Part shown: positions 1 through 9,953 of the stretch, piece by piece
Numbering within the stretch: the stretch's first letter is position 1
Layout: every line of letters begins with the position of its first letter
Virus record (IMG/VR): IMGVR_UViG_3300027714_000101
Location: 1 to 26,857 of that record
Length of the DNA stretch: 26,857 nucleotides
Origin: a virus
Direction: 5' to 3' (one strand)
Notes under the pieces: model-generated
Seen by the model: the letters and a program-made list of their open reading frames with translations, nothing else
Database searches by the model: none
What the model was told of the DNA's origin: nothing
Program-made: the position numbers and the translations under genes

Positions 1-1687
1 CATTTCTTGCATCCTGTGCTGACAAGAATCTTGTTGCAGCTGTCACAGCGTTCGCTTTTAAACCTGTATAATTGCCAGGGTTGTCGATCGAATCTTGCAG
101 CACCATTTTGGCATTAGCCGTCATCCTGGCAATTTCTGCAGATCTCGCAATGATGCCAGCCGTCTTTTCTAGATACGCGGTTTCATCAATAGCTAAATAA
201 TCTCCCAACCCAATTCCCCTCGCAATAGTCTCTGGTAAGGTCGCTGCAAGATTTCGTTTGATATCTTCGACAGATGGAATTAGTCCATAGAGCCATTCAA
301 CAAACTCTTTAATGTTTTGTATAAATGTATTCTTTTCACCATCATCCTCGATGCTAAACACTCTTTTAAGTTCATTAATAATAGCATTGATGGGTGAGAA
401 TACTATATTGGCAAGTGTACCCAATATAGATTTACCCATATTCAAAGGCGACTGTGACCACCAATCATCCCAAGCCTTTTGAGCTTCAGCCTGACCTTCT
501 TCTGTTGTGCCTGTGGCACCAAACAAGTTTCTAATAAAGTCAAGGGATTTGCCAAGCATATCGAATGGGTATTGAATGATGTCTTTTATTATGGTTGTAA
601 ATGAAAAATCTTCAAACCCAGCCATGAAACTTGTAAACGCATTTGTATCATTAAATGTGCCATCAGCGTTTAGCCATGCAGCCGGCACAAATTGTTTAAT
701 GATGTATCCAGGAATTGCTTTAATGAAGTCGAGCATTTCACCAAAGAAGGAAGACAAAGCACCACTGAGGAAGCCACCAAGACCGCCGCCAATCCACTTG
801 TCCATTTTACCTTCACGGTCTTCCATCTCAGCCTGAGCTTCGCCCACACCATCAAACACAGATAGAATAACAGCAATAGGTCTCAATACTTTCAAAAAGG
901 TCTTGAGCCATTTGTTATCTTTTAGAGCCTGCATTGCCTTACTGATGAAGCCCTCTTTACCAATACCCTTAGTCAACTCAGCATTTGCTGCAAGGTTTGC
1001 CGCGTTGTTAGGCAGTCCATCTTCAACTGCCTTGAGGTTCTTTCCTAGGTCTTCTACGTATTTTGTTACGTTAGCAAAACCAACATACTTCTTGGATATT
1101 GCATCCACAAATCTGTTAGACTTTGGATCAAACTTATATTTGTCACCAATTAATTTGTCAATTGCTTTCATGTTTGCTGGGATATTGTCAAACATTCTTA
1201 GCGCTTTAGCACCCTTATCAGCCTTAGCCCACGCAGGTAACTTGAACGCTGCCATAGTGTTTTTAAGGAACCCTGTGTAGCCAGTGAACGCTCCTTTTAA
1301 GCGCCTTAGGTCTTTCATGTTAGGCCCAAGACCCTCAGTAGCAGCAACAAAGCCTGCCATGGTCGCTGTAATGGTTGCAACCGCACCACCAACCGCTGCT
1401 ATTAAGCCAGCGCCTGGCAACCCTGCAAGGAACATGCGGCGAGTGGAACTGTCGCTACTGCCACCAGAGGATGAAGAACTCCCTGCGCTGGAACGGGTTG
1501 CTGCTCTTCTAGCTTCAATGTCAGCTTCAAGCTGACGCTTTCTATCCAACTCTCCTTGTTCAAGAAAGGCCTTCATAGATTTAGTCAATGAAGCAACAGC
1601 CGCAGTAGTATCCTTCTGCGCCTTGACCTGATCTCTGTTAGAGTCTGCCAATGCTTTTGTTACATTGGATAGAGTAGCTTCAGCCAT
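1..1687 (-). CDS. Probable tail tape-measure protein (partial, C-terminus beyond the left edge)
   Basis: An uninterrupted minus-strand frame runs from an ATG at 1685-1687 to the window edge, giving the first 562 residues. The N-terminus is charged and helical (about 1-65), followed by a Ser/Gly-rich linker (about 67-82) and an Ala/Gly-rich membrane-like segment (about 86-116). More hydrophobic stretches lie near 268-282, 300-335 and 420-435. A helical protein with internal hydrophobic segments, encoded directly after the gp26 and tube-like genes, fits the tape measure, which sets tail length inside the tube and is ejected at infection. T4's tape measure gp29 is about 590 residues, so little may be missing. 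I do not recognise a gp29 signature; the call rests on composition and gene order. Its ATG lies inside the end of the -1 frame extension of gp26, suggesting translational coupling. Confidence 0.65.
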   Translation of the reverse strand, partial: MAEATLSNVTKALADSNRDQVKAQKDTTAAVASLTKSMKAFLEQGELDRKRQLEADIEARRAATRSSAGSSSSSGGSSDSSTRRMFLAGLPGAGLIAAVGGAVATITATMAGFVAATEGLGPNMKDLRRLKGAFTGYTGFLKNTMAAFKLPAWAKADKGAKALRMFDNIPANMKAIDKLIGDKYKFDPKSNRFVDAISKKYVGFANVTKYVEDLGKNLKAVEDGLPNNAANLAANAELTKGIGKEGFISKAMQALKDNKWLKTFLKVLRPIAVILSVFDGVGEAQAEMEDREGKMDKWIGGGLGGFLSGALSSFFGEMLDFIKAIPGYIIKQFVPAAWLNADGTFNDTNAFTSFMAGFEDFSFTTIIKDIIQYPFDMLGKSLDFIRNLFGATGTTEEGQAEAQKAWDDWWSQSPLNMGKSILGTLANIVFSPINAIINELKRVFSIEDDGEKNTFIQNIKEFVEWLYGLIPSVEDIKRNLAATLPETIARGIGLGDYLAIDETAYLEKTAGIIARSAEIARMTANAKMVLQDSIDNPGNYTGLKANAVTAATRFLSAQDARN

Positions 1688-1874
1688 GTTTCATATTCCT
1701 TGCTCGAGCAGCTTCGTTTTGTTCTTTGATATGATCTGTCAATAATGTAAGGTACACTTCCCTTTCCCAAGGCATCATATTGCCAATTTCGCTTAGTGAA
1801 TAGTGATGATGTTGCATCAGTTGGAAGTTAGTATTATAATGGTTCGCTAAGCTATCATGAGAAAGGCATACTAA
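1680..1874 (-). CDS. -1 frame extension of gp26 (probable frameshifted part of a tail assembly chaperone)
   Basis: The -1 frame relative to gp26 is open from the T-run at the gp26 stop down to a TGA at 1680-1682 and encodes 64 residues. It contains an HHHYSLSEI motif, an MMPWERE motif, an amphipathic helix and a charged C-terminus, so it reads as protein rather than noise. A slip by one base at the T-run would give a fusion of 233 + 64 = 297 residues. It ends 8 nt inside the tape-measure gene. The only ATG giving most of it alone (1815-1817, 45 residues) has no Shine-Dalgarno sequence, which favours frameshifting over independent initiation. Known precedents are lambda gpG/gpGT and P2 gpE/E', at the same genomic position. 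That this phage does it is inference. Confidence 0.6.
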   Translation of the reverse strand, partial: LVCLSHDSLANHYNTNFQLMQHHHYSLSEIGNMMPWEREVYLTLLTDHIKEQNEAARARNMKHG

Positions 1875-1880
1875 AAAAAA
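1871..1880 (-). other. Candidate -1 slippery site at the gp26 stop codon
   Basis: On the minus strand the last gp26 codons read GAT TTT TTT TAG, giving eight consecutive T's ending in the stop codon. This contains a T TTT TTT heptamer that fits the X XXY YYZ slippery pattern, with the stop immediately after it, where a paused ribosome could slip. After a -1 slip the next codons are TTA GTA TGC and the frame stays open for 64 codons. Transcript slippage adding one U would have the same result. I did not identify a downstream pseudoknot. Confidence 0.55.
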
Positions 1881-2572
1881 TCAGTCATTCCTTGTAGTGT
1901 GCGTGTGTTCACCTCTTCACAGCGTTCACATTCGAAATAAATATCGTGGGTTAATTTGGGCATCTGTTCAACATAAGCACTTAACATCCCAAATTGTGTA
2001 CTTGTCATAGACTCAATAAAATCAACAATCTCTTTATTAGAGACATCCTTTACAAGTGTGCGTTCTTCATCAGACACAATAGCCTCAATGCACTTACCAA
2101 TTAGATCAAAGCCAATAGATGTGCTGGACCCCAGCGCTTCAATCTCAATAATCTGCTTGTATGTTGGCCACTTCATTTCAATAGAAATCTCATCAGTTAG
2201 TTGAACAACATTATTAATCTCGGGGACATCGACAACAACAGAGCTGACATCTACTGCAACCTCGTTATCATGCTCACATTTAGAACACTTCATACCAAGT
2301 TTGGCATTCTCGCCCACAGACTTCGAGCGAATCTGAGTAAACATATACTCGACATCAAAGATTGCGAGAGCAGATGTGTTAATCTCATCTTGCACACAAG
2401 CAGCAATTGTATCAACAACTGCACTCAATGTAGCCTTGGAGTCTTGTGTCTCCATTGCCATCATTAAGATTTTTTCTTCTTTTACCAGGTATGGCCTGTA
2501 ATTTACCTTCTGTTTTGTTGAAGGAATAATCAATTCATACTTTGGAGAGTCATTCAGTTTAGGCAGTGCCAT
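1871..2572 (-). CDS. 26: T4 gp26-like baseplate hub / tail assembly protein
   Basis: The 233-residue protein has the typical T4 gp26 family (T4_baseplate) beginning: MALPKLN, then YELIIPST and YRPYLVKEEKILMMAME. Two CxxC pairs (C96/C99 and C215/C218) probably form a zinc-binding site. T4 gp26 is needed for hub assembly but, as far as I recall, has not been located in the finished baseplate, which suits a chaperone. The ATG is preceded by AAGGATG overlapping the stop of the upstream tube-like gene (11 nt gap). The gene lies between a tube-like gene and the tape measure, the normal slot for a tail assembly chaperone, and ends in a T-run with an open -1 frame. Confidence 0.85.
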   Translation of the reverse strand: MALPKLNDSPKYELIIPSTKQKVNYRPYLVKEEKILMMAMETQDSKATLSAVVDTIAACVQDEINTSALAIFDVEYMFTQIRSKSVGENAKLGMKCSKCEHDNEVAVDVSSVVVDVPEINNVVQLTDEISIEMKWPTYKQIIEIEALGSSTSIGFDLIGKCIEAIVSDEERTLVKDVSNKEIVDFIESMTSTQFGMLSAYVEQMPKLTHDIYFECERCEEVNTRTLQGMTDFF

Positions 2573-2583
2573 TCATTTCATCC

Positions 2584-3291
2584 TTAGAATAATTTAGTTA
2601 ATAATGTACCAATCTGTGACTTTGCAAAGTCAAGACCAGGTGTTGCTTGTTTTGTTTCTGATGTCCATTTGGTATATGACATAGCAACAGTCAATTCCAT
2701 TAGACCTTCTTGATCGTTAGCTAGCTCTACAGCCATCATAGTTGTTGGGAATGCTTCAAATAGCGTGCAAGTATATACTACTTGGTCGCCCGTGAGAAAA
2801 TTAAGATCAAACTGCCCTTGAGCAAAGTCAAACGGTCCAATCTTAGGCAATCTGTTTTGGATCTCAGAAGGAAGTTTGGGAATACCCAACGCTGTTGAAT
2901 ATACCGGTAAGCCTACACCCTTACGAAGTTGCTCAACTTGGATTGTAAATGAGTATTCATTCTTATACCCAAGCTCATAGGTGTCAGTATTAACAGCAAG
3001 GCTCTGCCATGTTTCAAAATACTTCTTAATGCCATAATCATTTAATAACAGAAATGACATGGTTATATCATCGTGTACAAACCCGTACGCAATCTTCTCA
3101 CGCTTCATACCGATCTCTCGGTCGTATGTTAGTACTTGCTTACCTGGTAAGTTGACTTTAGTGCACAGCAAGTTGACTTCAGTCGCAGATGCTCCTGGCA
3201 ATGATGGTAGCTTTACTCTGAATATATTTCCTCGGGCGATCCCGCCTTTGGCAGATATCTGACCTTTTAGTTGATCTACGCCATAGCTCAT
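2584..3291 (-). CDS. 54: Tail-tube-fold protein, probably baseplate tail tube initiator (gp54-like)
   Basis: This 235-residue protein looks like the gp19/gp54 tube family of T4-like phages. It starts MSYGVDQLKG, then has GGIARGNIFRVKLPSL, VNLPGKQ, and a conserved middle with YGIKKYFETWQ and YSFTIQV, ending in a hydrophobic C-terminus after MSYTKWTSE. The tube fold stacks as hexameric rings through which DNA passes; gp54 makes the first ring on the baseplate and gp19 the rest. Position beside gp26, with gp48 just across the divergent promoter, favours gp54. The major tube protein gp19 is the alternative, because the tube - chaperone - tape measure order fits it equally well. Its ATG overlaps the stop of the preceding gene (ATGA). 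Confidence 0.68.
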   Translation of the reverse strand: MSYGVDQLKGQISAKGGIARGNIFRVKLPSLPGASATEVNLLCTKVNLPGKQVLTYDREIGMKREKIAYGFVHDDITMSFLLLNDYGIKKYFETWQSLAVNTDTYELGYKNEYSFTIQVEQLRKGVGLPVYSTALGIPKLPSEIQNRLPKIGPFDFAQGQFDLNFLTGDQVVYTCTLFEAFPTTMMAVELANDQEGLMELTVAMSYTKWTSETKQATPGLDFAKSQIGTLLTKLF

Positions 3292-7560: not shown

Positions 7561-8385
7561 ATGAAGGGTTTTTATGGAGATACAAGTAGATTTTTCCTGG
7601 GTATTGTTGTAAACAATGATGACTCTGAATTAAATCTAGGACGAGTGCAAATTAGAATATTTGGTGTCCACGATAACTGGGAAGACATTCCTGATTGGTC
7701 TCTTCCATGGGCTCAGATAGTTTTGCCTACCACAGAAGGTGGTATTAATGGTCTTGGGGCCAATCCAATGATTGAAACTGGGAGTCAAGTTTTTGGTTTC
7801 TTTTTAGACGGTAGAGACTCTCAACTACCCCTGGTACTCGGAACAATTCCAAAAATTATGACCCCCACAGCTTTTCAAGAAAGTAGTTTTACCAATTGCT
7901 CAGCTGCGCTACCACCAACAACAACTCGATCCACTCAAACTGGTGAATCAATTAAAGCCACCCCACAAACAAGTCTTGTTGGGTCAACTAATGCAGAGAA
8001 AGCATTTAACTTTATGGTTATGAATGGCTTTAATGCAAATCAAGCTGCTGCAATGGTAGGAAACTTTGCTGCCAAAAGCGGCATGGAATTGACAACAGGT
8101 TCTTATGGAATTGTTAGTTGGAGCGGGGACAGAGAAAAGGCTCTTACTGAGTATGCAACGGCTATCAATCAACCCATCACCTTGCTAGAAACTCAACTAG
8201 GTTTTGTAATGCAAGAGCTGAAAGGTTATTTTGCTCCAGCAGCGGCGAAGATCAGATCATCTAATGATATTGAGACAGCAACCTTACGTGCAAAACTTCA
8301 TTATTTTGAAGACAAAAGTATAAACGATCCTAGAACTGACCCAATTATTCTGATTGCACGAGATGTGTATGAGAGGTTTGCATAA
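7561..8385 (+). CDS. 5: Baseplate hub OB-fold protein with lysozyme-like domain (gp5 N-terminal equivalent)
   Basis: Residues 1-100 match the gp5/VgrG OB domain: FFLGIVVNNDDSELNLGRVQ, GVHD, LPWAQIVLPTTEGG, GSQVFGFFLDG and LPLVLGTIPK. A Thr/Ser-rich linker (about 101-143) leads to a tail-lysozyme domain (Phage_lysozyme2 type, about 144-274) with NAEKAFNFMVMNGFNANQAAAMVGN, SYGIVSWSGDREKAL and a TQLGFVMQEL helix. Where the family normally has GN-x-x-x-ESG, this protein reads GNFAAKSG, so the expected catalytic Glu is Lys172. The domain may be inactive and only structural. Unlike T4 gp5 there is no beta-helix in this polypeptide; that is encoded two genes downstream. It abuts the gp27-like gene, its presumed ring partner. 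Confidence 0.78.
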   Translation: MKGFYGDTSRFFLGIVVNNDDSELNLGRVQIRIFGVHDNWEDIPDWSLPWAQIVLPTTEGGINGLGANPMIETGSQVFGFFLDGRDSQLPLVLGTIPKIMTPTAFQESSFTNCSAALPPTTTRSTQTGESIKATPQTSLVGSTNAEKAFNFMVMNGFNANQAAAMVGNFAAKSGMELTTGSYGIVSWSGDREKALTEYATAINQPITLLETQLGFVMQELKGYFAPAAAKIRSSNDIETATLRAKLHYFEDKSINDPRTDPIILIARDVYERFA

Positions 8386-9953
8386 TGATTACTAAAAAAA
8401 CATTGAACAATTCTTTATCTTCTTTAAAGAACAGAATCAACTTTGACACAATTGCTAATGCTGCAACAACTGCTATTGCGGAATTGCAATCGACATTTAC
8501 AACCACTCTAGGTTCAAGTGTTGGTAGTGAAGTCGGTGGGTTTCAATCCCTCACTCAAGAAATAGATGGTGCTGTGAATAGCAATGAAGTTGTGGGTGGC
8601 GGGGTAAGTTTAATTACAAAAAACCCATCGGGAGTCAATCTTGTCGAAGAGATATCTAGCTCTGTTATTGCAGAGCTGACAGCAATTGCTGGATTGGATG
8701 TTGTGAGTGGGATCAACAAGACCATTGTATCTGCGTCTACACCCGAAGCGATTGGCGCAACTGTAAGTGCGGTGGCCAACAAAGATATTGATGATGTCCT
8801 GCCAGCTATTATAGCAGTCTCTCCAAGCAGATTGCAGTCATCGGCTGGATCAGCGGTAGTAAAAGAACTTAAAGGTGGAGGTATTGGCAATTCGTTTGTA
8901 TCCACGTCTAACATAAGTTTGGCGGCTGTAAAACGCTATCTTGATAAAGGAATGAACCAACCTGTTAAAGACTTAATTGAAGAAGTAGACCAAACAGTCA
9001 AATCGGTAATTATAAATCTGACTCAATCGACAGGTAAGCTAATTCCTGTAAAAGTAATACAACAAGCAACTGGTCTCATAGATAACAAGCGATATAAAAC
9101 TGCGGCAGAATTAATTGCGGGTTATTCTAGCCTGTCTGTAATTGATATAGAAACAGAACTTGCAAAAATTAGCACTAGTGTAAAAGACTCAGTGCAGCCA
9201 ACAAATACCGCTTTTAACAAGTTGGGAACATCTACTGCACCTACTTGTGTTATTTCTCAATACGATTCGTACTGGAATGGTGCTGATACAAGTATAAAGA
9301 ATCCTGGAGGGTCTACTGGTCAATCATATGCATTTTCATATGTTTCTTCTCTTGAAGAACTGGAAGCGGAGCTAAGATCTGCGACGAGAGAAATTACAGA
9401 AACCGTTATTCATTGGACTGCCCATTATACAAACCAAGCCTCTGTAGGGGCTGAAGAAGTTCACAAGATGCATAAACAACGAGGGTTTAGTGGGATTGGA
9501 TATCATTACATTATCAGGCGCGATGGTAGAATCCAAAGAGGGCGACCCATTAATCAACAAGGTGCTCATGCAAGAGACTTTGGTCATAATAGAAAAAGTA
9601 TTGGGATCTCTCACGTAGCTGGATATAATTGTGTTTCTGGGACGCCAAATCCTGATCAATATATATCAGCCGCTTCTATTAATACTGCTCAATGGAAAGC
9701 TCAGAAAGATTTCCTTACTGCATTCTATAGAGTGTTTCCTGGCGGACAAGTGATAGGTCACTATCAATGCACAACAACTGGTAAAGCCGACCCTGGATTT
9801 GATGTAGACGCTTATATAAAGAATACATTTAATAAAACAAATGCGATAGCATATGCTAATAGCCAAGGTCCTTTAACTAGACAACAATTGATTACGCAAA
9901 GAGGCACTAACCAAGCTCCTTTAACTAGCCTTCGCCCCATAACTAGACCGTAA
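8385..9953 (+). CDS. Baseplate-associated N-acetylmuramoyl-L-alanine amidase (PGRP/Amidase_2)
   Basis: Residues about 1-330 of this 522-residue protein are Ala/Ser/Val-rich and unrecognised, probably a helical or structural domain. Residues about 335-483 form a T7-lysozyme/PGRP-type zinc amidase that cuts the amide bond between muramic acid and the stem peptide. The probable zinc ligands are H343 (VIHWTA), H459 (GHYQC) and D469 (KADPGFDVDAY); Y373 and K467 correspond to catalytic Tyr and Lys in T7 lysozyme. Other matches are GYHYIIRRDGRI and GAHARDFGHNRKSIGI. The C-terminal 30 residues carry PLTR/PLTS repeats. It lies between the OB-fold hub gene and the spike gene, so it is probably virion-borne and used to locally open peptidoglycan at entry rather than as an endolysin. 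It overlaps the previous stop by one base. Confidence 0.85.
   Translation: MITKKTLNNSLSSLKNRINFDTIANAATTAIAELQSTFTTTLGSSVGSEVGGFQSLTQEIDGAVNSNEVVGGGVSLITKNPSGVNLVEEISSSVIAELTAIAGLDVVSGINKTIVSASTPEAIGATVSAVANKDIDDVLPAIIAVSPSRLQSSAGSAVVKELKGGGIGNSFVSTSNISLAAVKRYLDKGMNQPVKDLIEEVDQTVKSVIINLTQSTGKLIPVKVIQQATGLIDNKRYKTAAELIAGYSSLSVIDIETELAKISTSVKDSVQPTNTAFNKLGTSTAPTCVISQYDSYWNGADTSIKNPGGSTGQSYAFSYVSSLEELEAELRSATREITETVIHWTAHYTNQASVGAEEVHKMHKQRGFSGIGYHYIIRRDGRIQRGRPINQQGAHARDFGHNRKSIGISHVAGYNCVSGTPNPDQYISAASINTAQWKAQKDFLTAFYRVFPGGQVIGHYQCTTTGKADPGFDVDAYIKNTFNKTNAIAYANSQGPLTRQQLITQRGTNQAPLTSLRPITRP

Follow-up and report, generated by a model that had tools for sequence, protein, structure and literature searches.

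Does the gp26 gene of this uncultivated T4-like phage end where its stop codon stands, or do some ribosomes slip there and continue into a second reading frame? In the window, by which we mean the whole 26,857-nucleotide stretch of IMG/VR record IMGVR_UViG_3300027714_000101 that was analysed, gp26 is a minus-strand gene whose last codons are GAT TTT TTT TAG, with a T TTT TTT heptamer (1880..1874) next to the stop (1873..1871). The -1 frame stays open from the heptamer through 64 codons (1874..1683), and its TGA falls 8 nt inside the next gene, giving an 8-nt overlap. Both features had been noted in the first-pass annotation and were confirmed in the sequence. Judged from sequence comparison, the locus very probably encodes a tail assembly chaperone made in two forms from one start through a programmed -1 frameshift. 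The features that bear on this reading are as follows.

1871..2572, minus strand: gp26 (TAC-N), 233 codons plus stop TAG, matching PF12322 (T4_baseplate) and PHROG 150
1874..1880, minus strand: slippery heptamer T TTT TTT within the gp26 terminus GAT TTT TTT TAG
1871..1873, minus strand: 0-frame stop TAG of gp26, directly adjoining the heptamer
1680..1874, minus strand: -1 frame extension, the short gp51 or TAC-C domain, 64 codons (1874..1683) plus TGA (1682..1680)
1889..1893, minus strand: Shine-Dalgarno-like AAGGA, 8 nt 5' of the heptamer; a possible stimulator, suggestive only
2..1687, minus strand: next gene, 562 codons, ATG at 1687, running off the window; a tape measure by position only
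2584..3291, minus strand: tail tube gene upstream of gp26, matching PHROG 45 (E 3.6e-30)

Identity of the two reading frames and their neighbours

The gp26 product belongs to a recognised family, with matches to PF12322 at E 1.9e-56 and to PHROG 150 at E 7.2e-58. The 64-codon piece, which the first-pass annotation had treated as unnamed, matches PHROG 634, 'baseplate hub assembly catalyst' (E 1.7e-25); a further match is to the C-terminal end of PHROG 150. These two matches identify it as the short gp51 of marine T4-like phages, a protein that already has a name. Following a slip, the -1 frame reads FF|LVCLSHDSL...ARARNMKHG* over 64 codons, and the long form, ...MTDFF-LVCLSHDSLANHYNTNFQLMQHHHYSLSEIGNMMPWEREVYLTLLTDHIKEQNEAARARNMKHG, would total 297 residues.

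The gene order was confirmed upstream, where the tail tube gene precedes gp26. Downstream, the extension had been placed just before the tape measure; a large gene does follow it, but one with no recognisable tape-measure homology. Gene 2-1687 gave no relevant PHROG match and no Pfam match above the cut-off, and tblastn against 50,697 phage records found no relative; the name 'tape measure' therefore rests on position. In Pelagibacter, Methylophilales and rhizobial relatives, gp51 is separated from the large downstream gene by one or two additional small genes (L003 1386-1788, L004 1419-1748, L089 2694-3113 and L092 2669-3088). Elsewhere in the window, 7561-9953 on the plus strand holds a gp5-like hub protein with a baseplate hub/tail lysozyme N-terminal match; the gene after it has an amidase domain at residues 332-488.

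Conservation of the heptamer and the -1 frame

The locus was compared with 85 close relatives, comprising 80 IMG/VR loci and 5 phage records, among which 44 representatives are less than 90% identical to each other. The first-pass annotation had suggested looking in such relatives for a conserved slippery run and an open -1 frame, and both recur. T TTT TT(T/C/A) is present in the gp26 register in 85/85, its last base being T in 44, C in 35 and A in 6. The first six T's are invariant in a 37-row DNA alignment, and they stay constant while the 0-frame residues they encode vary (FF or FL). Elsewhere in the gp26 bodies there is only one other in-frame T TTT TT(T/C/A), in 10,149 codon positions. 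The codon before the heptamer is NNT in 44/44 representatives, compared with a T-ending share of 69-74% for the Asp, Asn, Ser (AGY) and Gly (GGY) codons of gp26 bodies.

The -1 frame is homologous among relatives from the FF of the heptamer onward. Over 55 codons it contains no stop in 80/80 usable loci, that is, relatives that are long enough and with L079 set aside, while the other two frames average 6.3 and 5.8 stops over the same codons. In L079 the conserved -1 frame is lost after about 20 residues, with a stop at 30; its start matches that of L057, and a contig error is therefore probable. Pairwise pN/pS in the -1 frame is 0.17 over residues 3-20, upstream of the usual first ATG, and 0.15 after that ATG. 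The ratio at the gp26 end is 0.36, and the alternative frames give ratios above 1. The pair counts behind these ratios are not phylogenetically independent, and the pattern does not hinge on a p-value. The -1 frame is under purifying selection even upstream of the usual first ATG, and the combination of an in-register heptamer with an open -1 frame is far beyond chance.

GenBank records read the same region as a separate small gene, with gp51 initiated on its own or by reinitiation after the gp26 stop. Many do annotate a stand-alone 'baseplate hub assembly catalyst', and in S-PM2 residue 6 of the -1 frame is an ATG. In the window, however, the first possible start in that frame is residue 22, without a Shine-Dalgarno-like sequence; the anti-SD energy there is +1.8 kcal/mol, compared with -5.8 at the gp26 start and -5.4 at the start of the next gene. 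In 76/80 loci, the stretch from the preceding -1 stop to the slip contains no ATG, GTG or TTG. The residues before the first start are conserved (pN/pS 0.17), and separate initiation would leave the heptamer without a reason for its conservation. We consider a separately initiated gp51 very unlikely.

The eight consecutive T's of the window could instead cause RNA polymerase to slip, adding a U to some mRNAs, which would then encode the long form. Six T's is short for transcriptional slippage, and because 19/43 representatives have only six (another 7/43 have seven) this origin is extremely improbable. The -1 relation is identical in relatives with 6, 7 or 8 T's, and what is conserved is a T TTT TTN heptamer placed in register with the codons. 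Homopolymer runs are also prone to sequencing or assembly error, and a true run of nine T's would make one plain gene. Against this, contig IMGVR_UViG_3300027686_000282 has the same 8-T run, differing from the window by 13 mismatches in 3,699 nt, and the 85 relatives keep the frame break with several different heptamers. Since the second contig agrees and relatives with runs of 6, 7 or 8 T's keep the same frame relation, an error in the run is barely conceivable. A programmed -1 frameshift that would yield short and long chaperones is, on this comparison, very well supported.

A predicted chaperone in two forms

According to this model of programmed frameshifting, most ribosomes would end at the TAG after gp26 and release a 233-residue short form (TAC-N). 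A minority would slip back one base with both tRNA-Phe moving simultaneously on T TTT TTT, bypass the stop and read 64 more codons (gp51, TAC-C), giving a 297-residue long form (TAC-NC). We infer both the slip and its efficiency from these sequence features. By analogy with lambda gpG/gpGT, the short form may coat the tape measure protein and the C-terminal part of the long form may recruit tube subunits, and the ratio of short to long would therefore matter.

Our search for stimulators of the slip did not point downstream. A stimulatory RNA structure was rejected, as RNAalifold on 37 sequences found no conserved pair downstream of the heptamer; folding of single sequences gave z values from +0.8 to -7.2, with the window at +0.68. 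Upstream, a Shine-Dalgarno-like stretch is strongest in 8-mers ending about 8 nt 5' of the heptamer. Its mean anti-SD energy is -5.9, compared with -4.3 in synonymous recodings, and 0/2000 recodings reach it. The slip-less T4-type genes that offered an FF-like anchor for scoring gave -3.2 to -7.5, which we attribute to a conserved Gly codon, and most of the distant frameshift phages have a weaker element. As slip-less relatives also show some of this signal, the element is only suggestive, and we put forward tentatively, as a somewhat doubtful possibility, that in these marine T4-like phages a stretch about 8-10 nt before the heptamer stimulates the slip in a dnaX-like manner, in place of a downstream structure.

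The AlphaFold model of gp26 has a mean pLDDT of 88.3. When its predicted N-terminal domain was compared with 678 PDB chains, the best match was 3fgx (Z 8.3) and the second was the HK97 tail assembly chaperone 2ob9 (Z 7.3, 85 residues aligned), followed by a third at Z 4.5. Foldseek alone gave E 1.2 and nothing at E ≤ 0.001 for the gp26 model against the PDB, and a sequence search with the gp26 profile among solved structures found no relative. The N-terminal domain is predicted to have a TAC-like fold, with the matches at Z 7-8 being moderate support. At 233 residues gp26 is much longer than the HK97 chain (107 residues modelled in 2ob9) and, unlike it, has a CxxC-containing region beyond the TAC-like domain. 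The two CxxC pairs, C96/C99 and C215/C218, are invariant in a 34-row alignment and could form one zinc ribbon joining the middle of the protein to its C-terminus just before the slip site.

The first-pass proposal that gp26 is a tail assembly chaperone with 233- and 297-residue forms arising through a -1 slip accordingly finds strong support in conservation and selection and moderate support in the predicted fold. The arrangement resembles that of lambda gpG/gpGT in lying between the tail tube gene and a large gene and in shifting by -1 close to where the short ORF ends, with the long form extending the short. The lambda slippery sequence is G GGA AAG, which differs from the T TTT TTT found here, and P2 gpE/E', in a tail gene of a myovirus, has a -1 site of the poly-T type, the same kind as in the window. 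By analogy with lambda, in which the chaperone role is known (reviewed in PMC5009743), gp26 probably acts as a chaperone.

gp26 and gp51 across T4-like phages

Sites of this kind extend beyond the close relatives. Seven more distant T4-like phages (Sinorhizobium phiM12, Desulfovibrio 7757, Stenotrophomonas Yut2, Rhizobium N34, Vibrio ValKK3, Ochrobactrum OC and Aeromonas 65.2) have T TTT TT(T/C/G) and a -1 ORF of the same kind. Where genes 26 and 51 are separate (T4 and 10 other phages), gp26 lacks the heptamer in 11/11, and most slip-less gp26 genes retain FF or F-x residues, often encoded as GAA/GAG TTC TTT. Both T4 gp51 and T4 gp26 match PF12322, and their PHROG 150 matches span residues 13-280 and 14-235, respectively; these matches indicate that T4 gp51 is a gp26 relative with the C-terminal part in frame. 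Judged from this homology, T4 makes the same two forms with a gene for each, 26 and 51. Vladimirov, Gautam and Davidson reportedly place T4 itself, with genes 26 and 51, in the group of T4-like phages that use two genes.

The first-pass annotation knew of no such frameshift in the T4 gp26 family, yet one has been described. As cited in the PRFect paper (PMC10885494) and the phage Adele paper (PMC12846349), Vladimirov, Gautam and Davidson (Virology 566:9, 2022) reported poly-T -1 frameshift signals in T4-like TAC-N genes and, in some T4-like phages, a short gene with a longer fused gene instead, an alternative also seen here. An older view held the tail chaperone frameshift to be conserved 'except T4' (PMC5009743). 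The window shares with the system described in 2022, as represented in those two papers, the kind of protein, the poly-T -1 signal in TAC-N and the short and long output; the phage here is uncultivated, and we found no difference in mechanism from what they relate. As far as these citing papers go, this type of frameshift is already reported for T4-like phages, and the window is a new uncultivated member. The TAC of the Vandenendeviridae phage Adele likewise combines a conserved -1 open frame with a poly-T motif at the end of TAC-N, and the ORF that follows is generally given a gene annotation of its own, as here; Adele differs in belonging to another phage family and in its motif, GTTTTT (PMC12846349).

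Annotation of gp51 is uneven among the phage records compared (L001, L002, L003, L005 and L105). The GenBank starts lie at different internal codons, giving proteins of about 34 aa in C48C1, 44 aa in Mosig and 57 aa in S-PM2, and the region is left unannotated in S-MbCM7 and Aeromonas 65.2. These uneven starts and missing annotations look like artefacts of the frameshift being ignored. In marine T4-like phages, the product labelled 'gp51, baseplate hub assembly catalyst' almost certainly does not exist on its own and instead forms the C-terminal part of the frameshifted long form of gp26. This corrects a widespread annotation error, in that database gp51 entries starting inside the conserved domain would be truncated. 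It also provides a clear case in which the same two-protein output would be reached either through a frameshift or, in T4, through two separate genes.
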